From Cellulomonas wangsupingiae (GTDB lineage: Bacteria > Actinomycetota > Actinomycetes > Actinomycetales > Cellulomonadaceae): DNA of 64,000 nucleotides. This document shows, in pieces, positions 40,052 to 56,294 of the stretch. Numbering within the stretch: position 1 is the stretch's first letter; each line of letters opens with the position of its first letter. The notes beneath the pieces are model-generated. The model was not told the origin of the DNA. It was given only the letters and a program-made list of their open reading frames with translations, and made no database searches. The position numbers were made by a program, and so were the translations under genes. Where the stretch lies: contig NZ_CP101989.1 in NCBI RefSeq assembly GCF_024508275.1, positions 2,852,001 to 2,916,000 of the forward strand, given 5' to 3'.

Positions 40052-40582
40052 TCAGTCCCCGACGACGGTGATGCTCTCCTCGATGCCGGAGACGACGTCG
40101 TCCGGCAGGTCGCGACCGGTCAGCTGCAGCCCGACGCTCGCCCCCGAGCGGGCGTCGGCCGCGGCCCAGAACACGCCCTGCACGTCGTCGTACGTGAAGT
40201 CGTTGCGCCGGACCTCGAGCGTCTCGGTCGCCACGGGCGTCGACGTCCCCGTCGACGCGTAGCCCCAGCCGCCGACCTGGGCGCCGGCGACGAAGGTGTC
40301 GAGCGCCTGCTCGGCGCCGTCCTGCCCCAGCTCCGGCGCGCCGACGAGCAGCACGGACGTCGCCCCGGGGTCCGCGTCGTCGGACCAGCCGACGCTCCAC
40401 ACGTCGTCGCTCTGCGGCACCTCGACCCACGCATCAGGCACCGCGAACGACAGCGGGCCGGACTCGACGCGCTGCCACCCCTCGGGCGTCGTCGCGGCGG
40501 GCTCGTCGGACCCCGTGCATCCCGCGACGGCCAGCGCGAGCAGGCTGCCGCCGATCAGGACGGACAACGGACGACGGGGCAC
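40052..40582 (-). CDS. Lipoprotein of the pilin-headed cassette (paralogue of 43211-43789)
   Basis: A 176-residue lipoprotein: signal with core [14 protein letters not shown] (lipobox AVAGC, Cys22), then a domain beginning [21 protein letters not shown]. The same pattern (GW, then GP, then P-x-x-W-x-E) opens the lipoprotein at 43211-43789, and both end in a similar acidic-Ile/Val stretch. Resembles secreted actinobacterial PsbP/LpqN-like lipoproteins, but weakly. GTG 40582 has AGGTGG upstream and follows the stop of the membrane-protein gene by one base. Probably an accessory of the pilin-headed protein. Confidence 0.75.
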
Positions 40583-40583
40583 G

Positions 40584-41060
40584 TCACACCACCTCGGCAT
40601 AGGTCGAACGGCTCGGCGGCGACCAGCGTACGTGGGCGAGCGCACCGCCCGCCGCACCGGTCGCGAGCAGCACGAGCACGGGCACGGCGACGTCGAGGAC
40701 CTGCACGAGCGGCGCAACGTCGGCGCGCGCGGCCGCCTCGGCGGCACCCAGCAGCGACGTCACGAGCGCGACGACCGCCGGGACGGCGACGGCCACCAGG
40801 CCGCTGGACCGTGCCGGCCGCACCGCGGCACGGGCGACCACGACCAGCACCGAGACGGCTCCCGCGAGCAGGCCCGGCACGACCAGCACGGGCCAGGCGG
40901 TCACCGCCGCGCCGGACCGGGCCACCAGGACCCCGAGGAGCAGGGCCCCGGCCACCAGCGCTGCCAGGTAGGTCACCGTCCCCGCCACCCACGCCACCAG
41001 GAGCCGTCGCACCGTCCTCACCCCGTCCTCGTCGGTCCGGCGCCGCACGACGCCGCTCAT
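40584..41060 (-). CDS. Four-helix membrane protein of the pilin-headed cassette
   Basis: A 158-residue integral membrane protein with a basic cytoplasmic N-terminus (RRRTDEDGVRTVRR) and four hydrophobic segments. Its ATG overlaps the stop of the pilin-headed gene upstream by four bases (41057-41060). Family unrecognised; it may be the membrane partner for the large protein, in the same relation as the membrane protein at 45270-45674 to the second one. Confidence 0.7.
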   Translation of the reverse strand: MSGVVRRRTDEDGVRTVRRLLVAWVAGTVTYLAALVAGALLLGVLVARSGAAVTAWPVLVVPGLLAGAVSVLVVVARAAVRPARSSGLVAVAVPAVVALVTSLLGAAEAAARADVAPLVQVLDVAVPVLVLLATGAAGGALAHVRWSPPSRSTYAEVV

Positions 41061-42493
41061 GCGCACAGCCCGTCGTCGACGAGCTGCCTGCTGCCGTCCT
41101 GCGTCGGCGCCCCCAGGAACGACGCGTCCACCTTCGTGGCCGTCGCCTCCTCCGCGCTGATGTTGAAGCCGAACTCCCAACCCTTCTTGACCGCCGCACC
41201 GAACTCCCAGGAGTCCTTGACGTTGTGGTAGGTCACCTGGCTGAGCCTCGCCTCCTCGTACATCAGCTGGAGGAAGGGGTCGTCCGACGGGTGCTCCGGG
41301 ATCATCGCCGAGAACGGCAGCGTCAGCGTCTCGCCCGCGGCGTTCCGGTCGATCCACTCCTGCACCTCGGCGCGGTTCTCGTCCGTCACGTCGAGCTTGG
41401 TGGTCGTGACGACGGACCGGGTCTCCCCCTCCGCCAGCTTGCCGCTCACCGACTTGAACGTGTTGTTGCCGAGGTTCATGCTGCCGCCGACCTCGTACGA
41501 CGACTTGAACGCGATCTGCGAGAGGTTCCCGTCCGCGTCGTACGTCGTGGTGAAGGCACCCGAGACCGAGCCCTCGCCGGTGGCGTGGCCGACGACCATG
41601 CTGCCGCCGAGGGTGCCCTTGCCGCTCAGCTCGTACGTGTAGCTCTTGGTCCCCTTCTCGGTGTCGTTCATGACGGTCACCGACCCGCCGGCGGACAGGG
41701 AGCCGTTGACACCGAGCTTGGGGTCGATGAGCTTGTCCTTGCCGTCGGCGTCCTTGCTGGTGCCGGGGATGCGCGCGCCCGCGCTGGCCTTGAGCGCCGC
41801 CTCGAGCGAGATCCTGCTGTACGAGATCCTGGGGTCCTTCGGCGCGTCGACCCAGCCGTCGGTCAGCCACAGGTAGATCGACATCCCCGCCGCGCCCTCG
41901 CCCTTGAGCTGCTGCTGCTGGATGAGGTAGTCGTCGAGCTGCTCCTGCATCGACTCCCACTGCTGCGCGTCGTCGAACTCCCAGGTCGAGCCGTACTCGA
42001 ACTTCAGGTCGCCGCCCAGGCTCACCTCGACGCCCGCGTTGTCGCCGTCGCCGAGCTTGCCGGCGTCGAACGTCTTGGATCCCAGGCTGGTGCTCGCGCC
42101 GATCCCGGCGCCGTCCGTCAGGGTCGCCCGGACCGTGCCGTCGGAGAACTCCTGGACGATGAAGCCCGAGCTGTCGCTGATCTTGAAGAACCAGATCTTG
42201 ACCTCGGCCGAGTACCTCTCCTTGGTCTCGGACAGCATGCAGACACCGGGGTGGTAGTCCATGTCGTCGGGCGCCGTCGTCGGTGCCGGCACGTCGCAGT
42301 CCCCGGCCCCGCCGTCCAGCACCGCGACGACGCGGCACACCGCCGACGCCGCGTAGGGCGTGATGGTGGGGGTGGCCGCGACGGTGACGCCGATGAGCAG
42401 GGCAGCCACCGCGATGATGCCCGTGTACTCGAGCGTCCCGGAACCCTCGTCGCGCGGCGGTGCCGCGTGACGCCGGAGCGTGCGCAGCCCCAC
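41057..42493 (-). CDS. Large protein with Flp-pilin-like N-terminus and beta-rich body (copy 1)
   Basis: A 478-residue protein. Residues 17-45 are a type IVb (Flp) pilin signal: GSGTLEYTGIIAVAALLIGV with Glu22 in the conserved +5-type position. After the helix comes VCRVVAVLDGGAGDCD, two Cys 15 residues apart, then about 420 residues with alternating short hydrophobic strands, many Gly/Ser/Thr/Lys/Asp and little helix (EVSLGGDLKFEYGSTWEF, SLSAGGSVTVMND, KGTLGGSMVVG). It ends in LCA. True Flp pilins are 50-80 residues, so the body is extra. The paralogue at 43864-45273 shares the head and the Cys pattern. Probably exported, membrane-anchored or assembled on the Tad pilus (inference). Confidence 0.8.
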   Translation of the reverse strand: MGLRTLRRHAAPPRDEGSGTLEYTGIIAVAALLIGVTVAATPTITPYAASAVCRVVAVLDGGAGDCDVPAPTTAPDDMDYHPGVCMLSETKERYSAEVKIWFFKISDSSGFIVQEFSDGTVRATLTDGAGIGASTSLGSKTFDAGKLGDGDNAGVEVSLGGDLKFEYGSTWEFDDAQQWESMQEQLDDYLIQQQQLKGEGAAGMSIYLWLTDGWVDAPKDPRISYSRISLEAALKASAGARIPGTSKDADGKDKLIDPKLGVNGSLSAGGSVTVMNDTEKGTKSYTYELSGKGTLGGSMVVGHATGEGSVSGAFTTTYDADGNLSQIAFKSSYEVGGSMNLGNNTFKSVSGKLAEGETRSVVTTTKLDVTDENRAEVQEWIDRNAAGETLTLPFSAMIPEHPSDDPFLQLMYEEARLSQVTYHNVKDSWEFGAAVKKGWEFGFNISAEEATATKVDASFLGAPTQDGSRQLVDDGLCA

Positions 42494-42536
42494 GTCGACC
42501 TCCCGGTCCTCGGTATGTGTGTGGACAGGACGCTAC

Positions 42537-42566
42537 GGGCCCCGCCCGGCCGTCGGCCGGGGCCCA
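42537..42566 (-). terminator. Possible terminator between the two pilin-headed cassettes
   Basis: A GC-rich interrupted hairpin (core stem CCCGGCC with GGCCGGG, loop GTC, outer GGG/CCC) between the stop at 42653 and the start at 42493. It would separate transcripts of the two cassettes. It could equally lie in the promoter of the downstream gene. Confidence 0.4.
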
Positions 42567-42652
42567 GGGGTCCATCTGTGCGTCACGCCTGGGGCCGCGG
42601 ACCCATCACGGCAGGTCCGGGCCCCGGGCACCGCGCGACGGCGGTCGGTGCG

Positions 42653-43207
42653 TCAGCCGGCCGCGGGGGCGCGCGGACCGCGCACCGCCCGCCGCGTCAG
42701 CCAGCCCAGGAGGAACAGCACGGGGGCGAACACGATCAGCGCCAGACCGAAGCCGGGCGTACCGGCGACGCTCGGGTCCGCCGACACCGCGACCTCGGCG
42801 AGGTCGCCGCCGCTGCACGTGACGGTCGCCGCGGCCCCGGTGCCGGCCGTGACGGCGAGCAGCGTCCACTCGCCCGTCCCCCCGGCGTCCTGCACCGTCG
42901 ACGGCAGCCCTTCGACGGGCCCGACGGGCAGATCGGCCACGGGGTCACCCGACGACCGGGCGGTGGTGCAGGTGACGCCCGCGGACGACGGCCGGCCCCA
43001 CACGGCCGCGTCCCCCGCGGCCGGCAGCAGCTCCAGCGGCTCGCCCGCCGGGCCCGTCCGCCACATCTCGACGGGCGCCTGCGCACCCGGACCGGTCCCC
43101 ATCGTGAGCAGGACGCCCATGAGCAGCACGAACGGTGCGCCCAGCATCGCGACCCACGACCACAGCCGGGCCGTGCGCCCCAGGTTGCGGCGCGTCAGGA
43201 CGGCCAC
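42653..43207 (-). CDS. Membrane protein with extracytoplasmic Cys-containing domain
   Basis: A 184-residue protein with an N-terminal helix (about 16-38, LWSWVAMLGAPFVLLMGVLL), a roughly 110-residue outer domain with three Cys (VTCTTARSS and VTCSGGD), and a C-terminal helix (about 150-170) followed by a basic tail. It starts three bases after the stop of the lipoprotein gene and ends the second pilin-headed cassette. Family unrecognised. Confidence 0.7.
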   Translation of the reverse strand: MAVLTRRNLGRTARLWSWVAMLGAPFVLLMGVLLTMGTGPGAQAPVEMWRTGPAGEPLELLPAAGDAAVWGRPSSAGVTCTTARSSGDPVADLPVGPVEGLPSTVQDAGGTGEWTLLAVTAGTGAAATVTCSGGDLAEVAVSADPSVAGTPGFGLALIVFAPVLFLLGWLTRRAVRGPRAPAAG

Positions 43208-43210
43208 GCG

Positions 43211-43789
43211 TCAGCCCACCGTCACGGACGCGAGGACGTCGTGCGCCCCCGACTCGTCGAAGTCCTCGGCGGGTGCGACGACGGCGACGATGGCCTGCGA
43301 GCTGTCCTCGAGGTCGATGACGAGGTACTCGTAGCGCATGTCGACGTCGTCGGCACCGATCCGCACGGTCGCCTCGTACCCGATCCACCCCGCGTTCTCG
43401 GCGCCGGGCCAGGACAGCACGGCCTCCTCGACGTCGCGCGCCTCGACGCCGGCCGAGCCGACGTCCTTGAGGTTCGCGATCGCGGCCTCGGCGTCCCGCC
43501 GCCGCTCCGACGTCACCGACGTGTGGACCCCGGTGCCCGGACCCTCACCCTGCGCACGCAGCGCGTACGCCTCGTCGGCGGCCTCGCCGGGCTCGGTGGC
43601 GAACTCCTCCCACTCCCCCGGCGCCGAGAGGTCCACCGGACCCATCGCGTGCGACGTCCAGCCGTCGGGCGCGGCGGCCGGCACCAGCGGTGCGTCACCG
43701 CTCGCGTCCTCGGACGTCCCGCACGCCGCGAGGGCGAGCGGTGCGAGCAGGACCGCGAGGATCCGGCGGCGTCGGGCAGGGGTTGTCAC
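43211..43789 (-). CDS. Lipoprotein of the second pilin-headed cassette
   Basis: A 192-residue lipoprotein with signal RRRRILAVLLAPLALAAC (Cys23). The outer domain opens GWTSHAMGPVDLSAPGEWEEF, matching the opening of the lipoprotein at 40052-40582; YEYLVIDLEDSSQAIVAVVAP follows. GTG 43789 with GGAGG five bases upstream is preferred over an earlier ATG. It lies directly after the pilin-headed gene and before a membrane protein. Confidence 0.8.
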   Translation of the reverse strand: MTTPARRRRILAVLLAPLALAACGTSEDASGDAPLVPAAAPDGWTSHAMGPVDLSAPGEWEEFATEPGEAADEAYALRAQGEGPGTGVHTSVTSERRRDAEAAIANLKDVGSAGVEARDVEEAVLSWPGAENAGWIGYEATVRIGADDVDMRYEYLVIDLEDSSQAIVAVVAPAEDFDESGAHDVLASVTVG

Positions 43790-43863
43790 ACAGGCCTCCA
43801 GGGGAAGGGACGTCCGGGCGAGGGCCCGGCCGCGTGTCGGGGCGGCGGTCCGGGGCACGAGGA

Positions 43864-45273
43864 TCACACGACGCACTCGGCCCGGTCCACCATGCCCGTG
43901 CCGTCGAAGTAGCGGTAGTCGGTCGTGGCGCGGGTGCTGTCGATGGTCTCCGCGCTCAGCCCGAGCTCGAGGCCCACCTTGCCCTGCGCGTTGACGCCGT
44001 CCTCGGTGGAGCCCGTGGTGTACGTCTGCTCGTAGATGTACCCGCGGTCCGCGGCCGCCACGCCCAGCTCCCTGCCCAGGTCCGCCGGGTTGAAGCGGTC
44101 CAGCACCGTCTGCGACACGTTCACGCTGTCGGTGATGCCCGGGTAGTACGGCACACCGGCGGCGTGCATGACGCGCGTGGCCAGCCGACGGTCGGCCGCC
44201 GAGTCGAGCGGGATCTCGACGACGCGCTCGGTGAACGAGGGGTCGCCGTCGATGCCGCCCGGGCCCGAGTAGCTCTCGTCAGCCACCGTGTCCCAGCTCG
44301 TGACGCTGCGGATGCGGAACGCCGTGGGGTTGCCGTCCTCGTCGCGGTCGACCTCCATGACGGCGCCCATCGACCCGTCGAGCGTGAACTGCTGGTAGAT
44401 GTCGTTGCCCGTGGGGGTCACACCGTGACCCTGGAGGCCGCCACCGATCCCCATGTCCGCCCGCAGGTAGTCGGTGGACGTCCCGTCCTTGCGGTTCGTG
44501 CGCCCGACGTAGGCCTCGAGGAACGCCTCGGCGTCCACGGACCCGGCGATCGCGTTGACGCCGGCCGACGCCTCACCCTCGACGCCACCCTCCACGAACC
44601 ACTCGTCGGGGTCGAGCTGCTCGAACTCGTTGCTGCCGCCGAGCTCCTCGTTCACCCAGTCCACACCGTCGCGCAGGGGGTTGTCGTCACCGAACCAGAA
44701 GTCCTTGGTGTCGTCGTTGCGCTTGTGGTCGAGGATGCGCTTGGCCTCCTCGGCCGACTTCGCGATGTACGACTCGCCCCCGCCGACGACGAGCGAGACG
44801 CTCGCGTCCGCCGTCGCCCCGACGCCGTAGGTCTGGCCGTCGTTGGTCACGCTGACGTCGAAGCCGACGCCCACGCCCATGCCGACGCCGACGTCCGCGG
44901 CCCGGGTCAGCCGGTACGTGCCGTCACCGAGCTGCTCGATGACCCAGCGCTCGCCGCTGTCGAGGGTGACGACCACCGTGATGGAGCCGTTCTCCTCCCG
45001 GCCGTTGGAGGACACGACGCACTCCTCCGGCGGGACGTAGTCCCCGGGTGCCCGGCCACCGGGCACGGTCGAGCAGTCACCGCCCTGCCCGAACGCCTCC
45101 ATGATGCGGCACATCGCGGCCTGCGCGTGGTCACCCGGCCGCATGGACGTCAACGAGACCACCACGGCCGCGATGAGGACGGCGGCGACCGTGATGACGC
45201 CCACGTACTCGAGCGTGCCGATGCCCGCGTCGCCCTGCAGGGCGCGCTCCCGCGCCTTCCGCCACCGCCTCAT
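43864..45273 (-). CDS. Large protein with Flp-pilin-like N-terminus and beta-rich body (copy 2)
   Basis: A 469-residue paralogue of the protein at 41057-42493. Residues 15-43 are the Flp signal GDAGIGTLEYVGVITVAAVL with Glu22 at the same residue number as in copy 1. MCRIMEAFGQGGDCS follows, again a Cys pair near residues 54-67. The body (about 75-469) is rich in Gly, Asp and Thr, with runs such as GVGMGVGVGFDVSV and EGEASAGVNAIAGSVDAEAFLEAYVG, and ends ECVV. It overlaps the preceding membrane-protein gene by ATGA (45270-45273). The body has no recognised domain. Secreted or pilus-associated by its head (inference). Confidence 0.8.
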   Translation of the reverse strand: MRRWRKARERALQGDAGIGTLEYVGVITVAAVLIAAVVVSLTSMRPGDHAQAAMCRIMEAFGQGGDCSTVPGGRAPGDYVPPEECVVSSNGREENGSITVVVTLDSGERWVIEQLGDGTYRLTRAADVGVGMGVGVGFDVSVTNDGQTYGVGATADASVSLVVGGGESYIAKSAEEAKRILDHKRNDDTKDFWFGDDNPLRDGVDWVNEELGGSNEFEQLDPDEWFVEGGVEGEASAGVNAIAGSVDAEAFLEAYVGRTNRKDGTSTDYLRADMGIGGGLQGHGVTPTGNDIYQQFTLDGSMGAVMEVDRDEDGNPTAFRIRSVTSWDTVADESYSGPGGIDGDPSFTERVVEIPLDSAADRRLATRVMHAAGVPYYPGITDSVNVSQTVLDRFNPADLGRELGVAAADRGYIYEQTYTTGSTEDGVNAQGKVGLELGLSAETIDSTRATTDYRYFDGTGMVDRAECVV

Positions 45274-45674
45274 CGCACATACCCCTTCGCTGTCTCGCGC
45301 ATCCGCACCCGCACACCGACCGCCGTGGCCAGCACGACCGCGACCCAGGCCACCAGGTCGACGGCCAGCGTCCCGGCGCCCGCCGGCAGCAGCAGCTGCC
45401 CGAGGAACGTCCGGGCGGCCCACGTGAACGGGTTCGCCAGGAAGCCGACCACGGACGCGACCGTCACGGCCACGACCACGCCGGACGTCACCCGGACGCC
45501 CTGCAGACCGCGCCAGGTGACGACCACCAGCACCATCGCCACCAGCACCGTCTTGAGGAGCAGGGCCGGGACCGTCGGGAGGCCCGCGAGCGCGAGGACC
45601 CCTGCGGCCCACGCCATCACCGCTGCACCGGCCGCATACACCGCGGTCATGACCGCGAGCCGAACCACCGACAC
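45270..45674 (-). CDS. Four-helix membrane protein, first gene of the second cassette
   Basis: A 134-residue membrane protein with four hydrophobic segments. The central loop NPFTWAARTFLGQLLLPAGAGTLAVDLVAWVAVV closely resembles SPTTWQGRTYAAQLVVAPGTATVLLDLALWLVVG of the divergent gene at 45882-46301, so the two are paralogues. GTG 45674 has GGGAGG eight bases upstream. It overlaps the pilin-headed gene by four bases. Confidence 0.75.
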   Translation of the reverse strand: MSVVRLAVMTAVYAAGAAVMAWAAGVLALAGLPTVPALLLKTVLVAMVLVVVTWRGLQGVRVTSGVVVAVTVASVVGFLANPFTWAARTFLGQLLLPAGAGTLAVDLVAWVAVVLATAVGVRVRMRETAKGYVR

Positions 45675-46323: not shown

Positions 46324-46932
46324 TCAGGACCGCGTCACCGGCACGGCGACCAGCGGCTCGAGCCCGGGGAACTCGATGGTGACCTCGGTGGTGCCCTCCG
46401 CGAGCGGGGGCAGCAGGGCGGCGAGCACGTCGCCCTCCCCGATCGACATGGGCATCTGGGAGCAGGCGCAGAAGTCGTCGCTCGTCGTGTCGCCGGCCGT
46501 GTACCCCGTGTAGGGCAGCAGGCGCTCACCGCCGGCGTCCACCACGACGATCGAGCGCGTGTCGTTCCAGATGTCGCGACCGTCGCCCCAGGGGCGCCGG
46601 TCGACGTCCGTCACGCCGTCGTCCGTGGACCGCAGCACGTAGACCAGGTCGGTCCCCTGCGCGTGTGCCGTCACCGACAGGACGTCGACCTGCACGTCCC
46701 AGTCGCCCTTCGCGGACGCCACGGTCCCGCTGGTGCCCGCGACGGGCTCCGCGCCGAGCACGTCCGACTCGAGCACCGCCTCCGCGAGCGACTCGACAGT
46801 CCACTGCGGCTCCTCGGCCGCGGCGGACCCGCTGGGCGCCGTGGTGGGCGTCGGCGTCGCGTCGGCGGAGCACCCCGCCAGGAGCACGAGCACGACCGCC
46901 CCCGACACGACCCCGGTCCTCGTGACCCTCAT
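46324..46932 (-). CDS. Lipoprotein paired with the OmpA-like protein
   Basis: A 202-residue lipoprotein with lipobox LLAGC (Cys21) and a beta-rich domain (about 50-200), with WDVQVDVLSVTAHAQGTDLVYVL, DTRSIVVVDAGGERLLPYTGY, a CAC motif and VTIEFPGLEPLVAVPV. It resembles the C-terminal domain of the lipoprotein at 26329-27906. Its ATG overlaps the stop of the OmpA-like gene by four bases (46929-46932). Confidence 0.8.
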   Translation of the reverse strand: MRVTRTGVVSGAVVLVLLAGCSADATPTPTTAPSGSAAAEEPQWTVESLAEAVLESDVLGAEPVAGTSGTVASAKGDWDVQVDVLSVTAHAQGTDLVYVLRSTDDGVTDVDRRPWGDGRDIWNDTRSIVVVDAGGERLLPYTGYTAGDTTSDDFCACSQMPMSIGEGDVLAALLPPLAEGTTEVTIEFPGLEPLVAVPVTRS

Positions 46933-48023
46933 GACCCCGCCCCGATCTGGTACTGGACCGTCACCCGCCGGTTGAGCTGCATGTTCTCCGGGGTGTCGTT
47001 CGGCGCGACGGCGTCCTTCTCGCCACGACCCACCGCGCTGAACGTCACGTTGCCGCCGGCACCGGGCTGCAGCGCGGCGACGACGGCCGCGGCCCGCTGC
47101 TCCGAGAGCGTCTGGTTGGACGAGGAGGACCCGTCCGAGTCGGTGTGCCCCGTGACGACGACCTCGCCCCTGCCGCGGGCCGCGATGTCCGCGGCCACGC
47201 CGGCGAGCGCGTCGGCGGCAGCGGGGGTCAGCGTCGCCGAGCTCTTGTCGAACAGCACGTTGGCGTCGAGCGTCGTGGCGACCTGCTCGGTCGACTCGGC
47301 GGTCGCGACCACCTCGTCCGGCGTCACGGTGCGACGCGCGAGGTCGAAGATCGACGCCTGCGGGTCGGCCTGCGCCAGCACCGCCGCGTCGGGCAGCTCG
47401 GGCCACCCCGTGCCCAGCAGGGGCGCGGGCTCGTCCGACACCGGCTCGAGCGCGCCGTCGCCGACGGGGACGCGCGCCACCACCACGTTGGTGTCGCCGA
47501 GGACGACGTCGACCGAGGCGACGGACTCCGGGAGCTCCGGGAACACGCCCCACAGGACGCGCAGCTCACCCCGGTCGAAGCGGGCGTCCTTCTTGGTCGT
47601 CGTGAACGTCGTCTCGCCGTCGAGCAGGACGCGGTACACCTTCAGCCCCACCCGGTCCACGAGGTACATCTGCCCGAGCGCGTCGGTCGGGTAGCCCCGG
47701 CTGGTCTCGCGGAAGAACTGCCCGGCGCTGAAGGTGCTGTCGGCGTCCGCCGCGACGCCCGCGGACGCGTACAGCACCGTCCCGCCCTCGACCCGCTGCA
47801 CGCCGTGGACCGCTCCGCGCACCAGGTCCAGGTCGCCGCGGTCGCGGGCGCGGCGCGCGAAGGTGCCGAGCACCGGCACGTCCACGCCGTCCACCTCGAG
47901 CGTGCCCGAGGGCGTACGCGCCGTGTCGGCAGCGCCCGCCGGGACGGCCACGCCTCCCGCGAGAAGCGCCGCCAGCACGGCGACCGCCGTGCCCGCACGC
48001 GCTCGTCGTGTGCTCACCTGCAC
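46929..48023 (-). CDS. OmpA-family exported protein
   Basis: A 364-residue secreted protein with signal peptide (to about residue 31, AVPAGAA), an unassigned domain (about 40-225) and a C-terminal OmpA-like peptidoglycan-binding domain (about 235-360; ANVLFDKSSATLTPAAADAL, VVTGHTDSDGSSSSNQTLSEQRAAAVV, LNRRVTVQYQI). GTG 48023 has AGGAGG five bases upstream; a second in-frame GTG six bases on is possible. The OmpA domain is related to that at 26329-27906. In a Tad locus without an outer membrane it may fix the pilus apparatus to the wall (inference). Confidence 0.85.
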   Translation of the reverse strand: MQVSTRRARAGTAVAVLAALLAGGVAVPAGAADTARTPSGTLEVDGVDVPVLGTFARRARDRGDLDLVRGAVHGVQRVEGGTVLYASAGVAADADSTFSAGQFFRETSRGYPTDALGQMYLVDRVGLKVYRVLLDGETTFTTTKKDARFDRGELRVLWGVFPELPESVASVDVVLGDTNVVVARVPVGDGALEPVSDEPAPLLGTGWPELPDAAVLAQADPQASIFDLARRTVTPDEVVATAESTEQVATTLDANVLFDKSSATLTPAAADALAGVAADIAARGRGEVVVTGHTDSDGSSSSNQTLSEQRAAAVVAALQPGAGGNVTFSAVGRGEKDAVAPNDTPENMQLNRRVTVQYQIGAGS

Positions 48024-48071: not shown

Positions 48072-48845
48072 TCATCGCACGAGGCGCGGTTCGAGCCGGG
48101 CGTCGAGCCAGGCGCGCCCCGCGTCGAGCACGTCGGACCGGTCCCGGTCCCAGGCTCCGGTGTACCCGTCGCAGAGGAACCGGTAGCTGGTGCCCCAGAT
48201 GGGCACGGGCGGTGGCGGCGGGGTCGGCGACGGGGTCGGCGTCGGGGTCGCGGCCGGGTCCTCCGGCGGGGGCGTGGGCGTCGGGGAGGGCTCGGGCGGG
48301 GGCTCGTAGCCGATGATCTCCGCCCGCGACTCGAGGCGGCAGCTGCTCAGGGTGACACCGACCTCGGCCGCACCGTTGCGCACCGTCCGCCCGTCGTCGC
48401 CCTCGACGACCTCCCCCTGGTCCCGCAGCGCGACCCGGAGCTCGACGCGCCCGTCGCCGCGGTCGAGGGAGTACGTGCCCGGGACGAGGTCGGCGCCGTT
48501 GCGCGACGCGTAGGTCGCCGCCTCACCGATGCCCGTCGACGCCGGCAGGACCGACGCGAGGCTGACCCCGACCGCGAGGCCGGGCACGGAGTCCAGGGCG
48601 AGCACGCGCACGCGCTGGGCGGCCGCCAGGGCCGCGGCGTCCGCGGCGTCCTCGCCCTGGTCGGAGTTGGCCGTCAGCTGCATGATCGGCACGACGGCGG
48701 CCATGAGCAGGACGAGCGCGGCGAGGGCCACGATCAGGGTCAGCCCCGAGACGGCCATGCCGTCGTCGTGGCGCGCCGACCACCGCAGGGCCGCCCGCAG
48801 CCCTTCGACGGCCCGTGCTCGACGGACCACGCTCAGCGCACGCAT
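48072..48845 (-). CDS. TadG-like pilus-assembly protein
   Basis: A 257-residue protein with a basic N-terminus, a pilin-like membrane helix (about 32-55, SGLTLIVALAALVLLMAAVV) followed by SDQGEDAADAAALAAAQRVR, the pattern of TadG/TadE pseudopilin N-termini. The rest is extracytoplasmic, with a Pro/Thr repeat linker (about 192-225) and a C-terminal domain with two Cys. Excellent ribosome-binding site AAGGAGG. It lies downstream of the Flp pilin gene but is cut off from it by a terminator. Confidence 0.75.
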   Translation of the reverse strand: MRALSVVRRARAVEGLRAALRWSARHDDGMAVSGLTLIVALAALVLLMAAVVPIMQLTANSDQGEDAADAAALAAAQRVRVLALDSVPGLAVGVSLASVLPASTGIGEAATYASRNGADLVPGTYSLDRGDGRVELRVALRDQGEVVEGDDGRTVRNGAAEVGVTLSSCRLESRAEIIGYEPPPEPSPTPTPPPEDPAATPTPTPSPTPPPPPVPIWGTSYRFLCDGYTGAWDRDRSDVLDAGRAWLDARLEPRLVR

Positions 48846-48890
48846 GCGCTCCTCCTTCGTCAGCCGGACGACGCGCCCACCCCGGACAGC

Positions 48891-48931
48891 ACGACGAGCC
48901 TGCGGCACCGAGGGTGCCGCAGGCTCGTCGT
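48891..48931 (-). terminator. Strong terminator after the Flp pilin gene
   Basis: Perfect 19-bp stem (48891-48909 with 48913-48931), loop GAG, just after the flp stop and before the TadG-like gene. It would make the pilin transcript a separate, presumably abundant, short message. Confidence 0.9.
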
Positions 48932-48937
48932 CACCTG

Positions 48938-49162
48938 TCAACGGTTGAGCGAGTCCTGGATCTCCTGCGCACGGTCGCCCACGATGCCCTCGACGTCGAT
49001 GATGTCGAGCGCGCCCATGACGGCGACGATGAGGACGGCGGCGATCACGAGGATGCCGACGTACTCGAGCATGCCCTGACCGGCCTCACGGTCCTGGCCG
49101 GCGAGGCGGGCCTCGACCGCGTTCTGCAGACGGACCTTGGTGTTCACGAACATCCGAGTCAT
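48938..49162 (-). CDS. flp: Flp-type pilin
   Basis: A 74-residue Flp (type IVb) pilin. A long basic leader ends in GQG, followed by MLEYVGILVIAAVLIVAVMGAL with Glu33 at the conserved position and the tyrosine of the Flp motif. A short C-terminal part ends QDSLNR. It is the likely main subunit of the Tad pilus. The ATG at 49162 is preferred because GGAG lies six bases upstream; an ATG at 49174 is possible. A terminator immediately follows; the palindrome GGGTCC-GT-GGACCC lies 112 bases upstream. Confidence 0.93.
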   Translation of the reverse strand: MTRMFVNTKVRLQNAVEARLAGQDREAGQGMLEYVGILVIAAVLIVAVMGALDIIDVEGIVGDRAQEIQDSLNR

Positions 49163-49273
49163 CGCTGTCTCCATCTCGTCGCGCCGGCCGCCCGGCTCCG
49201 TGTGGCGTTCCGGCTGGTGAGCCGGTCGTGTGCTGATGACCGAAAACCTACGGTCCCTCCCGCACCCGCCGAC

Positions 49274-49301: not shown

Positions 49302-49964
49302 TCAGGTCCCGACGCGGTGTGGGCTCGTCGACCCGCCCAGCCACACCGAGACGGCCTCCGCCCGGGTCCGGACGCCCAGCTTGGCGAAGATGTGGTTGAT
49401 GTGGTTCTTGACCGTCTTCTCGGACAGGAAGCACTCGCGCGCGATGTCGCCGTTCGTCCGCCCCGCGGCCACCAGCTCCATCACCTCGATCTCGCGCGAC
49501 GACAGGCCGGCGTCGGGCCGCACGGGCGCGGCCGGGGCCGCGGGCGACGACCAGGCGGACCGCATCGCGACCGCCGCGGGCGACGACAGGACGAACGACC
49601 CCTGCGCCACGGCCAGGATGGTCCGTTCCAGCTCCCCGGCGTCGAACTGCCCGTGCACGAGGTACCCGACGGCACCGGCCTCGACCGCGGCACGCACCAC
49701 CTCCGGCGCGTCGGAGTACGTGAGCATGAGGACCTTGCTCCAGGCCCGGACCTCGGCGGCGACCTGCACGCCGTCCCGGCGCGGCATGCGCACGTCCAGC
49801 AGCACGACGTCGGGCACGGTCTCGCGCACGACGCGCACCGCCTCCTCGCCGTCGCCGGCCTCGCCGACGACCCGCACGGTCGCCATGGCGCCGAGCAGGC
49901 TCCGCAGACCCATCCTGATCACCGCGTTGTCGTCGACCACGACGACGCTCACCTCGGCCGTCAC
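49302..49964 (-). CDS. LuxR/NarL-type response regulator of the Tad locus
   Basis: A 220-residue regulator with receiver residues DD (11-12) and Asp57 (LLDVRMP), and LuxR-type helix-turn-helix LSSREIEVMELVAAGRTNGDIARECFLSEKTVKNHI. It overlaps the stop of the kinase gene by four bases (GTGA) and ends the Tad machine operon. Its likely targets are the Tad/flp promoters. Confidence 0.93.
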   Translation of the reverse strand: MTAEVSVVVVDDNAVIRMGLRSLLGAMATVRVVGEAGDGEEAVRVVRETVPDVVLLDVRMPRRDGVQVAAEVRAWSKVLMLTYSDAPEVVRAAVEAGAVGYLVHGQFDAGELERTILAVAQGSFVLSSPAAVAMRSAWSSPAAPAAPVRPDAGLSSREIEVMELVAAGRTNGDIARECFLSEKTVKNHINHIFAKLGVRTRAEAVSVWLGGSTSPHRVGT

Positions 49965-51166
49965 TGTGCTCCTCCCGTCACCGTCGAGCGCTCCCGCGGA
50001 CGCGACGCGCGCGCGTCACCGACCGGCGACCACGTCACCGTCACGGACGTGCCGTCACCCGGCGCGGAGTCGACGCGCAGCAGTGCGCCGACCATCTCCG
50101 CCCGCTCGTACATCCCGACCAGCCCGAAGTGGCCGGCAGGGCCCTCCCCCGGCGGCCCGGGCACGAACCCGACGCCGTCGTCCCGCACGCCGGCGCGCAC
50201 CGCCTCGCCCACACGCTCGAGCGTCACGGCGACGCGGGAGGCGCGAGCGTGGCGGACCACGTTCTCGAGCGCCTCCCCGACGATCGCCAGGACCTCGTAG
50301 CGCACCGAGGTGGGCAGGTCGACGGCCTCGTGCGCGGTGAACGTGCAGCGGACGCCGGTCTGCGCCTGCCACGCCCCGCACAGGTCGGCCAGCACCTCGG
50401 CGAGGGCACGGTCCGGCTCGTCGCGGCGCATCCGCACGAGGAGCTCGCGCGCCTCGCGGGCGGCCTGCTCCGCCCCCACGGCGAGGGCCTGCGCCTGCTG
50501 CCGCGCGACGGCCACGTCGCGGTCGATCCACGCCACCAGCCCCTGCGCCCCGAGCGCCAGGCCGTGCAGCGACTTGCCCACCGAGTCGTGCATCTCGCGT
50601 GCGAGCCGCGCACGCTCGTCGGCCGCGGCCGCGTCGCGCTGCGCCACGCCGAGCGCGTGCACCGCCTCGACCTGCTGGCGGTGGGCGGAGCGCACGCTGA
50701 CGCCGATCGCGAGCAGCGACACGTACAGCAGCGGCACACCCAGGTCCGACATGAAGCCCCGCGCCTCCGGCTGCACGGGCGAGGAGATGGCGACCAGGTA
50801 GTACCCGGCGCACAGCACGGCGGCCGCACCGATCGCGACGCGCCGCTCGACGATCACCCCGACGATGAGGGCCACCGGGAAGGTCGCCAGCACCAGGGGT
50901 GACTCCACGCCGAGCGCCCAGACCACCGCGAGGTTGATGAGGACGTCGATCACCAGCACCAGGGGGTGCCGCATCGCGAAGTCCATGGTCCGCTGGTACG
51001 TCAGCATCGCGAAGGTCGTCGCGCTCAGCACCAGCACGCAGGCCAGCAGCGGTCCGGTGATCAGCTGACCGACCAGGCCGATCAGCGCGATCATGATGGC
51101 GAGCAGGCGCAGCACGAGGGCCACGCCGACGATGCGCCCGGCGAAGTCCCGCTCGGGGTGCGCCAT
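49961..51166 (-). CDS. Sensor histidine kinase of the Tad locus
   Basis: A 401-residue NarL-type kinase. Residues 1-185 hold about six membrane helices with little outside loop, so the signal is probably sensed within the membrane. HisKA_3 contains REMHDSVGKSLHGLALG (His about 192) and the HATPase part has VGEALENVVRHARASRV and VRDDGVGF. It overlaps tadC by one base (TGATG) and the regulator by four, so it is made with the pilus machinery. Confidence 0.92.
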   Translation of the reverse strand: MAHPERDFAGRIVGVALVLRLLAIMIALIGLVGQLITGPLLACVLVLSATTFAMLTYQRTMDFAMRHPLVLVIDVLINLAVVWALGVESPLVLATFPVALIVGVIVERRVAIGAAAVLCAGYYLVAISSPVQPEARGFMSDLGVPLLYVSLLAIGVSVRSAHRQQVEAVHALGVAQRDAAAADERARLAREMHDSVGKSLHGLALGAQGLVAWIDRDVAVARQQAQALAVGAEQAAREARELLVRMRRDEPDRALAEVLADLCGAWQAQTGVRCTFTAHEAVDLPTSVRYEVLAIVGEALENVVRHARASRVAVTLERVGEAVRAGVRDDGVGFVPGPPGEGPAGHFGLVGMYERAEMVGALLRVDSAPGDGTSVTVTWSPVGDARASRPRERSTVTGGAQ

Positions 51167-52077
51167 CACAGACTGCCCAGGAGCGCCGTGAAGTCGAGGT
51201 CGGAACCCAGCACCAGTCCCGTGAGCAGCAGGATCATCGCCGCCGGGACCAGCAGGATCGTGCTCGTCAACGTCACCTTGGGCGCCGTGCGGGCGGCGGC
51301 CTGCCGCTGCCGCTGACCGGAGTCGCGGCGCATGTCGATCGCGATCTGGCGCAGCGACTCCGCGAGCGGCGCACCCAGCTCCTGGGACTGCAGCAGCGCG
51401 GAGACGAACTGCCCGACCGGCTCGGACGACGAGCGCCGACGCAGGTCGGAGAAGCCCTCGCGCACCGAGGCGCCGTTCGCGATCTGGTGCAGCGTCAGCT
51501 GCACCTCGTCCGCGAGCGCCCCCGCGAACTGCTCGGAGACCCGCCACAGCGCCTGGCGGAAGTTGACGCCCGCCATCACGGTCACCGCGAGCACGTCGAG
51601 GAAGTCCGGCAGGTCACGGTCCATCTGCTCGCGGCGTACCCGTCGTGCGCGGTCGAGCCTGCCCAGGGGGATGAACACGGGCACGAGCAGCACGAGCAGG
51701 GCGAGCAGCACGTAGCCCTGGATCGCGGCGAGCAGCCCGACGGGAATCACCAGGACGAGCCACCACGCGACACGGCCGAGGAACCCGTCGACCGTCATGC
51801 CGTCCGGCCGCCCGGCCTCGTCGATACGACGCTGCAGGCTCGCGAGCCGGCGCGCGCCCAGACGCCGCCGGATCGGCGGCACCAGGCGGTCGGCGAGCCG
51901 CTGCAGCGGCGACGTGCCCTCGGCGCGACGCCGCTGCTGCCCGCGCAGCAGCTCGAGGTCCTCCACCGCGAGGGTGTCGAGGGCGTCGGTGCGCAGCTGG
52001 CGGTACCCCGTCATGAGCAGCACGACGGCGACCGCGCCGACCAGCGGGACCAGCACACCCAGCAGCAGCGCGTTCAC
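51166..52077 (-). CDS. tadC: Tad inner-membrane platform protein TadC
   Basis: A 303-residue type II secretion F (GSPII_F) family membrane protein. N-terminal helix, cytoplasmic helical domain with [26 protein letters not shown], and C-terminal helices. It forms the platform with TadB for pilus assembly. GTG 52077 overlaps the tadB stop by four bases. Confidence 0.92.
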
Positions 52078-53000
52078 CCGTCGAACCTCGTCATCCTGCG
52101 GATCGCGACGAACCCGGCGAAGAACAGGCCACCGGCGACGACGAGCGCGGTACGGCCCGCCCAGGACTCGGTCATGGCCTGGACGGTGCCCGGCTGGATC
52201 GTGTTGAGCAGGAAGAGGATGGCCACCCCCATGCCGATCACCGCGTACCCGGTGACCGTCGCCTGGGCGAGCGTCGTCTTCACCTCGCGGCGGGTCTCCT
52301 TGCGGTCGTCGAGCGTGTCGGCGATGTCGCGCAGCGCCGTCACGAGGGAACCACCGCTGCGCGCCGAGACCAGGAGCGTCGAGACCAGCACGCTGACCTC
52401 GCGGGACGGCAGCCGCCCCTCCAGCTCGCGCATCGCGGTCTCCAGGCTGCCGCCGAACCGCAGGCGCGAGGCGACGCGCTGGAGCTCGACACCGGCCGGT
52501 GCCTGCAGCTCCTCCGCGGCCACGGCCACGGCCGACGCGATCGACAGACCCGCGCTGGTGGCGTTCGACAGCACCCGCGCGAGTTCCGGCATCTGCGCGA
52601 TGAACTGCTCGTTGCGGCGGTCGCGCGCGCGGGCGAGCCAGACGCGGACCGCGACGACACCTCCCGCGAGGCCCGCGAGGGCGAAGACCGGCGCGAGGCC
52701 GGCCGCCAGGATCCACGCCAGAACCACCCCGACCCCCGCCGCGACGGCGACGACGAGGACCGGGGAGCGGCGCTCCTCGCCGGCCAGCAGCAGCTGCCGC
52801 TGCGTCCACGCACCCGCCTTCGTCCGGGCGAACACGCGGTCCCACTGCGCCACCCGGCCCTGCCACGTCGGCACGGGCTCGTCGGCCACGCCGGACAGGA
52901 TGGTGCGCCGGCGGGTGGACACCGACGTCAGCTCGACGACGCCGGCGACGAAGGCCACGGTGGCGACGAACACGAGGGCCAGGACGAGGACGAGGGTCAC
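52074..53000 (-). CDS. tadB: Tad inner-membrane platform protein TadB
   Basis: A 308-residue GSPII_F family protein. N-terminal helix (1-22), a pair of helices at about 75-110, the cytoplasmic domain with [23 protein letters not shown] and [24 protein letters not shown] helices, and two C-terminal helices. Partner of TadC. GTG 53000 overlaps the cpaF stop by four bases. Confidence 0.92.
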
Positions 53001-54373
53001 GACGTCGCCTCCCACTCGGGGGTCTCCTGCTCCGCGGCCGCGGGCTTCGGGCCCTCCCCGGCGATCCGGAGGCGGTCCACGAGGACCTTGGGCAGCGGGT
53101 GGCGGACGAACGCCCCCGGCGTCGCGCCGTCGCCCGGCGCCTCGGGGTCCCAGTGCATGATCGGAGAGATCTGGAAGTCCTCGCGGTGGCGGGACGTCAC
53201 GTACCCGACCTCCACCACGCGCCGCGTGCCGTCGGAGCCGCGCAGCAGCTGGACGACGATGTCGATCGCGTTGTTGACCTGGTCGCGCAGCGCGTGGAAC
53301 GGCACCTCGACGTCGCTCATCGACGCGAGCGTCTCCAGGCGGATGAGCGCGTCGACCGACGAGTTGGCGTGCACGGTCGCGAGCGAGCCCTCGTGGCCCG
53401 TGTTCATCGCCTGGAGCATGTCCAGGGCCTCGCCACCGCGGACCTCGCCGACGATGATGCGGTCGGGCCGCATGCGCAGCGCGTTGCGCACCAGGTCGCG
53501 GATCGTGACCTGGCCGTGCCCCTCGACGTTCGCCGGGCGGGTCTCCAGGCGCACCACGTGCTCCTGCTCCAGCGAGAGCTCCGCGGCGTCCTCGATCGTG
53601 ATGATCCGCTGCCGGCCCGGGATGAAGGCCGACAGGGCGTTGAGGAACGTGGTCTTGCCGGACGACGTGCCGCCCGAGACCACGATGTTCGCGCGCATGC
53701 GGACGCACGCGGCGAGCAGGTCCGCGGTCGGCTGGTCGAGCGTGCCGCGACGCATCAGCTCGTCCAGCCCGTAGGAGCGGGGGAACAGACGGATCGTCAC
53801 GGTCGGCCCGTTGAGCGCGAGCGGCGGCAGGATCACGTGGACGCGCGCGCCGCGCGGCATGCGGTCGTCGGCGGGCAGACGTGCGTCCACCATGGGGCTC
53901 GACTCGTCGACGCGCCGGTTGACGGTCGAGACGATGCGGTCGATCGTCTGCCGCAGCTGCTCCTCGTTCGCGAACGAGGTGGTGGCGCGCTCGATCCGGC
54001 CGAACCGCTCGACGTAGATCGTGTCGTGCCCGTTGATCATGATCTCGGAGATGCTGTCGTCCGCGATCAGCGGCTCGAGGACTCCGAGCCCGATGGACTC
54101 GTCGACCACGCGCCGGATCAGCGAGTTGCGCTCGCGGGTCGACAGGATGACGCCCTCGGTCGACACGAGGTGGGCGACGACGCGCTCGAGCCGCACGCGG
54201 CGCTGGCCCGCGTCGAGCCGGCCCAGCTCGTGGAGGTCCACCTCGTCGAGGAGCTGGCGCTTGAACTGCGTCACCAGCTGCTCGTCCACGTCGTTGCGGA
54301 CCGCGGCCATCGACCCGTTCGACGGCGCCTCGAGCCCCGCGGGACGGCCCCAGTCCGCGAATCCCTCGCTCAT
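52997..54373 (-). CDS. cpaF: Tad secretion ATPase CpaF (TadA)
   Basis: A 458-residue type II/IV secretion ATPase powering pilus assembly. A variable N-terminal domain precedes [16 protein letters not shown] (Walker A, about 231-246), [10 protein letters not shown] (Asp box), [39 protein letters not shown] (Walker B and His box). All catalytic motifs are intact. ATG overlaps the TadE-like gene by four bases. Confidence 0.95.
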
Positions 54374-54729
54374 CGTCCCGTCCTCGGCATGGCGACCTGG
54401 CGCCCGACGTCCATCGTGAAGATGGGACCGTCGACGGTGACCTCGACCCGCACGGTGTCGCTCGCGGGGTACTCGATCCGGTAGGTGGAGTCACCCGGCA
54501 CGGACCGGGCGACGGCCAGCGGCACGGACCTGCCCAGGCTCAGTGCCCGGGCACCGTCGCGCGCCGCCTGGTGCGCCACGTGGATCCCGATCATGAACGA
54601 GATCATCTGCACGATGGCGAACAGGACGACGCCCATCACGATCACCGCGCCGACGACCTCGATGGCCGCCGACCCCCGGTCGTCGTCGCGTGCGGACGGT
54701 CGCCGGACGGACGCCTGCAGCAGCCTCAC
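54370..54729 (-). CDS. TadE-like pseudopilin
   Basis: A 119-residue TadE-type minor pilin: basic start, then RGSAAIEVVGAVIVMGVVLFAIVQMISFMIG with the conserved Glu of the TadE motif, then a soluble domain of about 65 residues. GTG 54729 overlaps the CpaE-TadE fusion stop by four bases. A minor pilus component or assembly factor. Confidence 0.85.
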   Translation of the reverse strand: MRLLQASVRRPSARDDDRGSAAIEVVGAVIVMGVVLFAIVQMISFMIGIHVAHQAARDGARALSLGRSVPLAVARSVPGDSTYRIEYPASDTVRVEVTVDGPIFTMDVGRQVAMPRTGR

Positions 54730-56294
54730 GGCTCCACCACCACCTGTCGGTCGATCGTCATCTCCCACGGCGTGCTGCGCAGGCCGGGGGCCAGCAGCGG
54801 GACGTTGGCCGTCACCTGGACCCGGCCCGTCGTGACGTCGCTCTCCACGCGCACCGTGTCGCGCATCGTGTCCGGCACCCGGTCGCGGGCCGCGTCCAGC
54901 ACCCTCGTCGGGTTCTCGCGCAGCGCCGTGGCGTCCGCCGCGGCGGACGCGGCGTAGCCGGTCCACACGAAGGTCAGCCCCGCGACGACCAGCTGCAGGA
55001 GCCCCATCGCCATGAGCAGGACCCACGGCAGCACGGAGATGAACTCCATGGCCACGGCGCCCTCGTCGTCGTCGCCACGCCGGCGCCGCGCACGCGACCT
55101 GCGCGCGGGCTCCTCGCCCTCGCCGGCCTCGGACGTCTCGCGTCGGCCGACGCCGAGGGTCTTGCCGATCCCCCGCAGGGCCTGCCACCACTGCGCGTCG
55201 GTCATGTACTCCGGCGACCGCGAGTTCGTCGACTGCTCGAGCCGACGCCCCTGGTCCGCGATCGCCACGTCCAGCACCGGCGAGGGCGAGAGCCGCTGGA
55301 CCGTGTCCGGCTGGATCTCGTCGGCACGGGCGTGCTTGTTGAGCACGACGTGCACCGCGTCGGGCTTGCGGACGGCGAGCTGCTCCCACCAGCCCACGTT
55401 GCGGCGCAGCCCGCGGATGCTGACGAGGTCGGGGGTGGTGATGACCACCACCTCGTCCGCGATCTCGACGACCGCCGCCTGCACCGGCGTCACGCGCGCG
55501 CCGACGTCGACGACGACGAGGTCGTACTGCTGGCGGACGAGGCCGACGATCTGGCGGATGGCCTGCGGCGTCACGAAGCCCGCGTCACGGACGTCCTCCG
55601 GCGGCAGCAGCAGGTGGATGCCGGACTCGTGCTCGTACACCGCGTCCGCGACGGTCCGCAGCGACAGGTCGTCGGCGACCTTGGCGAGGTCCGCGACGGA
55701 CGTCCGGTGCCGCGCCTCGAGGACGGAGCTGACGTCGCCCTTCTCCAGGTCCAGGTCGACGAGCAGCACCTTGCGGTCCGGCAGCTCGCGCCGCACGTCC
55801 CAGGCCAGGTGGGTCGCGACCGTCGTCACGCCGACCCCGCCCTTGGCGCCGGACAGCGCGAGGACGAGCGCCCGGTGCCCTCCCGCGCTGTCCGACCGGT
55901 CGACGAGGAACTCCCGCAGGCGGGCCGACCAGTCGAGGGCGTTGGAGACGCGCTGCTGCACCTCGGCGAAGCTGAACGGGTACGACAGGACACCGCGCGC
56001 ACCGGCGTCCATGGCCTGCGCCAGGACCTCGGGGTCGGCCTCCCCCGCCACGACGAGCGACACGCTCGCCGGACGGCGCAGCGTGAGCTCACGCACCACC
56101 TGGTGCATCGGCTCGGGCCCGAGCCGGTCGTGCACCAGGACGATGTTCGGCTCCCGCTCCACGACGCGGGCCACGAGCTCCGTCGTGCTCTCGGCGACCG
56201 CGAGGACCTCCAGGTCCCCGACCTCCGACAGCTGCGAGCGCAGGTCGTACGCGAGCGACTGGTCCGCGCACCCGATGATGACGGTCCCGGCCAT
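54726..56294 (-). CDS. CpaE-like ATPase fused to a TadE-like pseudopilin
   Basis: A 522-residue fusion. Residues 1-125 are a receiver-like domain (CpaE type). Residues 140-380 are a ParA/MinD ATPase with LALSGAKGGVGVTTVATHLAW (deviant Walker A, about 143-160) and LLVDLDLEKGD; this part localises the Tad apparatus. After an Arg-rich linker, residues 410-522 form a TadE domain (DEGAVAMEFISVLPWVLLMAMG) with its membrane helix. The Glu of the TadE motif is present. The two parts are normally separate genes; one continuous frame joins them with no stop. TGATG overlap with cpaB upstream. Confidence 0.85.
   Translation of the reverse strand: MAGTVIIGCADQSLAYDLRSQLSEVGDLEVLAVAESTTELVARVVEREPNIVLVHDRLGPEPMHQVVRELTLRRPASVSLVVAGEADPEVLAQAMDAGARGVLSYPFSFAEVQQRVSNALDWSARLREFLVDRSDSAGGHRALVLALSGAKGGVGVTTVATHLAWDVRRELPDRKVLLVDLDLEKGDVSSVLEARHRTSVADLAKVADDLSLRTVADAVYEHESGIHLLLPPEDVRDAGFVTPQAIRQIVGLVRQQYDLVVVDVGARVTPVQAAVVEIADEVVVITTPDLVSIRGLRRNVGWWEQLAVRKPDAVHVVLNKHARADEIQPDTVQRLSPSPVLDVAIADQGRRLEQSTNSRSPEYMTDAQWWQALRGIGKTLGVGRRETSEAGEGEEPARRSRARRRRGDDDEGAVAMEFISVLPWVLLMAMGLLQLVVAGLTFVWTGYAASAAADATALRENPTRVLDAARDRVPDTMRDTVRVESDVTTGRVQVTANVPLLAPGLRSTPWEMTIDRQVVVEP

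Follow-up and report, generated by a model that had tools for sequence, protein, structure and literature searches.

In a 64,000-nucleotide stretch of the Cellulomonas wangsupingiae genome (bases 2852001-2916000 of a single contig of 4.12 Mb; the window, below), two gene cassettes lie beside a Tad pilus locus, each built around a large protein with an Flp-pilin head and a tail predicted to form a 12-stranded amphipathic barrel. These proteins, called giants A and B here, belong to a set of pilin-headed proteins that is widespread in actinobacteria and in which they form one class beside enzymes and polymorphic toxins. We consider it probable that A and B serve the adjoining Tad machine as large prepilins and that the barrel acts at the target envelope in antagonism between bacteria. 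Both open reading frames (ORFs), with the Flp-type signal (Glu22 in each) described in a sequence-only reading of this DNA, are present. That reading's word giant overstates proteins of ~470 amino acids (aa), although the short Flps in our set are only 51-92 aa long (starts set by script).

43864..45273, minus strand: giant A, an ORF of 469 aa, with class III prepilin signal and helix (residues 1-45), putative Cys loop (C55/C67) and predicted barrel-like 12-strand tail (86-456)
41057..42493, minus strand: giant B, 478 aa, a paralogue of giant A with the same architecture

Both giants show G17/E22 and a single transmembrane helix, followed by the Cys pair that had been claimed for them (C55/C67 in A, C53/C66 in B). 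The canonical prepilin cut site has Gly at -1 and Glu at +5, and G17/E22 place the cut site of A and B in this way. In the A family (22 sequences), G17, E22, C55, C85 and C467 were invariant and C67 nearly so, and in the B family (35 rows) the matching residues were kept in at least 90%; G17/E22 were also invariant in a 22-member alignment of heads. A and B have the class III signal of Flp pilins (Gly -1, Glu +5 and a hydrophobic helix). Their size is not that of an Flp pilin (~50-80 aa when mature, helix only), and at 469 and 478 aa with a beta tail they are therefore not Flps but Flp-headed proteins. The Pfam model Flp_Fap matched neither A nor B; it also misses the true Flp and matches nothing in this genome. 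Because it failed as a genome probe, we built a head profile (A3) instead. A match of DUF4244 to the head of A fell below the cut-off and was not used.

Structure models of the two paralogues showed the same 12 long strands, in agreement with the beta-rich tail proposed earlier. Hydrophobic and polar residues alternate along the strands to a degree reached in 0 of 2000 shuffles for A and 0 of 2000 for B. The fold comparison covered the VIA lists, and the top-ranked matches of the A and B tail models were outer-membrane barrels; the likeness to the beta domains of the autotransporters (type V) EspP, BrkA, NalP and Hbp lies in the predicted 12-strand barrel. Identity in the structural rows is 6-12%, and a pilin head takes the place of the passenger. 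Pfam autotransporter families gave no match to A or B at E <= 1. The host has no outer membrane, unlike the hosts of autotransporters, and an autotransporter-like predicted barrel in a Gram-positive organism is surprising by itself. Sequence searches gave no credible solved-structure relative for either family, and a Pfam scan of A and B found no enzyme or toxin family above cut-off. The sequence-only reading had named a known secreted enzyme with a coincidental helix as one outcome that would speak against it; the profile databases returned no known secreted-enzyme family for A or B. We rejected this candidate for both proteins, given the lack of an enzyme family and the invariant prepilin motif.

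Counting A and B themselves, we found 24 homologous proteins in the A search and 47 in the B search (8000 candidates scored for each), so that the architecture is more than chance. The closest named homologues were Cellulomonas proteins, at 82% (A) and 81% (B) identity. The A and B families aligned over 432 columns with 99.8% probability, which makes them paralogues along their whole length and not only in the head. Together with a run of three consecutive cassettes in Cellulomonas sp. B6 (L183), this alignment upholds the suggestion of a duplicated module. An Actinotalea locus (L189) held one B-type and two A-type giants.

With the B profile, 12 named contigs were found (L183-L194). The order Tad genes, OmpA protein, lipoprotein, B-type giant and B-type lipoprotein was kept in C. 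cellasea (L184), C. timonensis (L185), Cellulomonas sp. RIT-PI-Y (L187), a Cellulomonas metagenome-assembled genome (L188), Actinotalea (L189) and Oerskovia (L192); guaA lies beyond the B-type cassette in L184, L185, L187, L188 and L189, not in L192. A distant A-type giant precedes the B-type giant in L188. Xylanimonas (L186) showed a similar order, with no match for Flp, the upstream lipoprotein or guaA, while L190 and L191 had giants with few Tad-locus or cassette genes, and the order was looser in L193 and L194. The Tad-giant-lipoprotein order in several Cellulomonas loci, as mapped here, and the Tad genes adjoining in the window and in named genomes agree with the claimed attachment of the module to a Tad locus. 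The module is patchily distributed: among 248 genomes of the order, the A profile matched in at least 18 and the B profile in at least 25 (E <= 0.001, head-only matches included), lower bounds with at most 6 candidates scored per genome. A duplicated, Tad-attached module thus stands as described; the description was incomplete, as A and B are no peculiarity of Cellulomonas but one class of the larger set.

A third headed protein of the same genome lies ~100 kb away, outside the window (L073 8792-10219; genome C1:2994791-2996218). Its tail is a calpain-type cysteine protease (Peptidase_C2, 1.9e-24) with the catalytic-looking motifs GDCWW, NHAYYV and NPWG, and a lipoprotein-like ORF follows. This tail marked the head as a module and led to the head profile, for which 22 proteins were used, 15 with beta tails. 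At least 190 of 394 genomes of the class matched it (E <= 0.01, short Flps included), a lower bound with at most 16 candidates scored per genome. We assembled 81 stretches, namely the window, 20 further stretches and 60 from the class-level head search; they held 130 heads, 97 of them on proteins of at least 150 aa (189-712 aa, median 472; long heads, below), from 40 genomes. Gly stood at -1 in 129 of 129 heads examined, in a Glu search that required a Gly 3-6 positions before and so favoured, without forcing, Gly at -1; the remaining head of the 130 (L160:11051), with unclear Glu and helix, was dropped from the motif and Flp-match tests. Among the 97 long heads, 76 had a Cys pair after the helix, as did 38 of the 39 beta types; none of the 30 Flps shorter than 100 aa did.

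The A/B-type beta tail was found on 39 of the 97 long heads. Pfam families (E <= 0.001) identified PT-HINT in 13 of the 97 tails, NlpC/P60 in 10, GDSL in 5, calpain in 4, Tox-REase-5 in 4, Abhydrolase_8 in 2, toxin deaminase in 2, and M23, CdiA-CT RNase A, GH-E, colicin D, Ntox24 and C92 in 1 each; tallies may overlap within one protein (for example, Hint plus toxin), and because the 60 stretches were hand-picked among the matches listed, mostly with open frames of at least 200 aa, such proportions are not population frequencies. The counts include, as found, L173, L179 and L145, whose reads run into odd sequence at their ends and are possibly frame-shifted, as well as L153 and one protein of L178, both truncated where their stretch ends. 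Beta and other tails occurred together in one stretch at 10 loci and in 20 of the 40 genomes. One genome (G361, L149-L158) had 11 long pilin-headed proteins in the fetched stretches, 2 with beta and 9 with other tails (one cut by the contig end). In L124, three tandem Flp genes with near-identical heads lie between pilin-headed beta-tail genes (6995-8551).

For immunity genes, we searched up to 250 bases downstream of 27 toxin-like tails and scanned ten ORFs; L158 had none in reach. Six of the ten matched immunity families (E <= 0.05), four of them over the Pfam cut-off, and four were unmatched. SUKH-1 was downstream of both deaminases (3.9e-7, 8.7e-11), CdiI_2 downstream of the RNase A (1.9e-9), and Imm52 downstream of three REase-5-type toxins (3e-4, 1.6e-3 and 4.8e-8, the first two below the Pfam cut-off). 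Four individual proteins were confirmed to carry the toxin domain, namely both deaminases, the RNase A and one REase-5 (L132), while L128 and L136 were assigned by like C-termini and the Tox-REase-5 tally of four. In databases, one headed Hint-Ntox24 protein is named "Flp pilus assembly pilin Flp," and others are named polymorphic toxin-type HINT proteins. The same pilin head on enzymes and on immunity-paired toxins suggests that the pilus machine displays or delivers weapons.

We also compared the heads with the Flps of their own genomes. For 61 long heads (here at least 180 aa) from 25 genomes, mean identity to the own-genome Flp was 0.499 versus 0.336 on permutation of the Flps over genomes (29 residues; 0 of 5000 reached the observed value). 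Permutation only within taxonomic families gave 0.505 versus 0.456 (56 heads, 22 genomes; 0 of 5000), and the transmembrane part without the motif, again within families, 0.414 versus 0.359 (0 of 3000). The observed value was reached for beta tails alone in 5 of 3000 permutations (29-mer) and 12 of 3000 (transmembrane part), and for other tails alone in 1 of 3000 and 2 of 3000, respectively. A smaller first test with 19 heads had given 0.53 versus 0.39 (0 of 20000). A Tad core gene or Flp was present in 19 of 32 stretches with a beta tail versus 7 of 40 with only other tails; since stretch lengths differ between these classes, Tad proximity is to be compared only at 9 kb or more, where the counts were 19 of 22 versus 3 of 9. 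With beta types near Tad genes and others scattered, the arrangement looks like a core tip gene with scattered cargo genes, for which VgrG and the orphan effectors of type VI secretion offer a comparison.

In the mechanism that we propose, the prepilin peptidase would cut the head after Gly17, and the helix would pack among Flp subunits as a minor or tip subunit, as the tracking of own-genome Flps by the heads and the synteny suggest. The Cys pair after the helix would close a disulphide loop, and the tail, as predicted for both paralogues, would form the amphipathic barrel. The lipoprotein and the small membrane protein may help to fold, anchor or guard the giant, as their conserved order and a single in-frame fusion suggest. 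The beta type would be the structural member kept by the Tad locus, and further loci of the same genomes would add wall hydrolases, protease, lipase and immunity-paired toxins as effectors that share its head. At the target envelope the barrel could be a receptor-binding or pore-forming tip, and a role there in interbacterial antagonism is the most likely one.

Several points weigh against this mechanism. Cleavage, assembly and delivery of A and B are putative, and neither protein has a toxin domain. The barrel is a prediction at a predicted local distance difference test (pLDDT) of 76-77; three of the five A models were at ~53, the other four B models were at 60-66, Foldseek TM-scores for A were low (0.1-0.3), and the relatedness of the two families means that the two barrel models are not independent. 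Of 16 cases compared, only 10 had the head nearer to the local Flp than to that of its best tail homologue, with 2 ties and 4 reversed, and common descent within families may account for some of the agreement between heads and Flps. Most stretches with other tails alone lack Tad core genes and Flps, with one present in 7 of 40 (31 of the 40 do not reach 9 kb), and the Cys pair is missing from 21 of the 97 long heads. In the 248-genome draw, the four other genomes from this genus had no A or B profile match, which makes the module dispensable.

An alternative that we regard as rather unlikely, though the strongest of those considered, is that A and B sit on the Tad pilus as tip adhesins, the barrel being a rigid domain that binds surfaces, polymers or partner cells without killing, and that the head was put to use in the toxin-headed relatives separately and later. 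Adhesion is a known function of Tad pili, as literature abstracts also state; A and B belong to no enzyme or toxin family, and the beta type is the class that lies near Tad loci (the 19 of 22 longer stretches). Adhesion leaves aside the wall hydrolases and immunity-paired toxins that carry the same head in the same genomes and loci, however, and amphipathic barrel strands exceed what an adhesin needs. We judge it improbable that the head serves for export and membrane anchoring only, with the tail in the wall and the protein never entering a filament. Such an anchor would suit the many headed proteins whose stretches lack Tad genes, the lipoprotein and small membrane partners, which suggest a membrane complex, and a Streptomyces protein (P0077) with an N-terminal polytopic stretch in frame with its head; it need not, however, track the own-genome Flp, as the heads do even within families, nor keep Gly -1 and Glu +5. 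That these are secreted proteins with a pilin-like helix and a barrel present only in models, as alignments of only 22 and 35 sequences and uneven agreement among the five models of each protein might hint, is very improbable in view of the invariant motif, the synteny, the same 12 strands in two families and the strand amphipathicity.

Beyond the antagonistic barrel prepilin, a broader reading is possible, and we offer it tentatively: actinobacterial Tad machines may serve as contact-dependent delivery systems in which a single, exchangeable Flp head joins every part to the pilus. The barrel would then be a pore or docking ring at the target, the NlpC/P60 and M23 hydrolases would open the path, and the immunity-paired toxins would be the cargo. 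If so, this would be a new export module for polymorphic toxins, a route separate from type V, VI and VII secretion that uses covalent pilin-effector fusions. It would explain large proteins now named hypothetical, TadG-like or Flp pilin, and, with candidate effectors fused to the pilin, the effector question would be directly testable in soil actinobacteria.

The earlier statement that no described system has this composition was partly wrong. The Kil tips of Myxococcus xanthus (KilL-M-N) are described as TadG-type large minor pilins that sit on a Tad pilus, carry C-terminal domains, come from several paralogous clusters and are needed for contact-dependent killing, with the tip1-4 genes reported as restricted to Myxococcota (PMC12075869). 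They are a functional precedent; A and B, too, are large pilin-headed proteins with a C-terminal domain, encoded with a Tad machine. The Kil tips are heterotrimers in a diderm, whereas here one Flp-type head carries the predicted barrel in a Gram-positive organism; the partners of A and B are a small membrane protein and a lipoprotein in place of the heterotrimer's two smaller pilins; and Kil effectors, as far as that paper's text shows, are not pilin fusions, whereas relatives of A and B fuse the head to toxins. The toxin is stated to be unknown in a further paper (PMC8460266). The relatives also resemble polymorphic toxins as described in PMC3482391, with variable C-terminal toxin domains, PT-HINT and downstream Imm52, SUKH-1 and CdiI_2. 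They differ in using an Flp pilin as the trafficking head, and the C-terminal toxin domain is found in relatives and not in A and B themselves; the words "pilus" and "pili" are absent from the first 300,000 of the 357,715 characters of PMC3482391. A 2025 paper names Flp pilins, in one sentence, as one kind of N-terminal module joined to ARC toxin domains (PMC12605009), there as an architecture of one toxin family, and "pilus" and "Tad" do not occur in the main text. PMC12691689 lists export domains of alarmone synthetases and contains neither "pilin" nor "pilus." In the open-access literature, no paper among the matches listed describes Flp-headed effectors as a class; in databases they are named piecemeal.

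The remaining cassette genes confirm that each large protein has a small membrane protein and a lipoprotein as neighbors.

45270..45674, minus strand: small membrane protein A, ~134 aa, ~4-5 predicted transmembrane helices (5 counted in a longer ORF), overlapping the start of giant A
43211..43789, minus strand: lipoprotein A, ~192 aa, lipobox AAC (by eye and prediction)
42653..43207, minus strand: membrane protein between the cassettes, 184 aa; its L183 homologue has 2 transmembrane helices
40584..41060, minus strand: small membrane protein B, ~158 aa, its start overlapping the stop of giant B; its L183 homologue has 4 transmembrane helices
40052..40600, minus strand: lipoprotein B, ~182 aa, lipobox AGC (by eye)

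Transcription on the minus strand (45674->40052) runs from small membrane protein through giant A, lipoprotein A, membrane protein, giant B and small membrane protein to lipoprotein B, and the start/stop codon overlaps (membrane protein/giant A; giant B/membrane protein) suggest co-translation. Third-position GC content is 0.97 for giant A and 0.97 for giant B, and C85 and C467 are additional conserved cysteines of A. The membrane protein between the cassettes is kept beside lipoprotein A in L183 and L189, and homologues of lipoprotein B lie downstream of giant B in L183-L189 and L192. The opening that the two lipoproteins were said to share was found again (hhalign 95.7%, first 52 columns only). 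Pfam-type family searches gave no immunity-family match for either lipoprotein, lipoprotein B had no credible solved-structure relative by sequence, and PADLOC returned nothing useful. A "Mog1/PsbP-like" lipoprotein fold, considered as a guess, was supported by no search and was dropped. The Streptomyces protein P0077 (669 aa), with its polytopic membrane stretch upstream of the head, reads as if a small membrane protein had been fused to a giant. A GuaA-like gene (named from sequence) lies downstream of the cassettes, and a divergent 139 aa gene lies between them and the Tad locus.

The Tad locus is upstream of the cassettes and runs from a TadZ-like ATPase to a third lipoprotein.

54726..56294, minus strand: TadZ/CpaE-like ATPase and C-terminal TadE-like stretch in one open frame (TadE part by eye)
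52997..54373, minus strand: CpaF/TadA ATPase (PF00437, 2.8e-64)
51166..52866, minus strand: open frame with a TadB/TadC-type T2SSF protein in frame residues 270-548 (PF00482, 2.6e-17; PF19359, 9.5e-15)
49961..51547, minus strand: HisKA_3 histidine kinase (Pfam match)
49302..49964, minus strand: LuxR-type response regulator (Pfam match)
48938..49174, minus strand: true Flp pilin, 78 aa, motif GQGMLEYVG
48072..48941, minus strand: TadE/TadG-like protein, assigned by N-terminal transmembrane helix and position only, with no Pfam match
46929..48023, minus strand: OmpA-domain protein (PF00691, 7.3e-16)
46324..46932, minus strand: third lipoprotein (by eye), between the OmpA-domain protein and the cassettes

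The genome holds genes both for Tad assembly and for a prepilin peptidase, the latter as its one Peptidase_A24 match, outside the window. The third lipoprotein was matched in 7 of the 12 named loci. The cell has no outer membrane, and the OmpA-domain protein is hence odd; it is kept in the Tad loci of Gram-positive relatives (L183-L189, L192). The 522-aa frame at 54726-56294 (minus strand) reads as a TadZ/CpaE-like ATPase and then a C-terminal TadE-like stretch EGAVAMEFISVLPWVLL; both parts match in the same frame in L184 as well, and the frame is a possible TadZ-TadE fusion. Elsewhere in the genome (C1:3114127-3114228, L010), a second short pilin-like head lies beside frames that look by eye like TadB/C, perhaps a second Tad-like locus.

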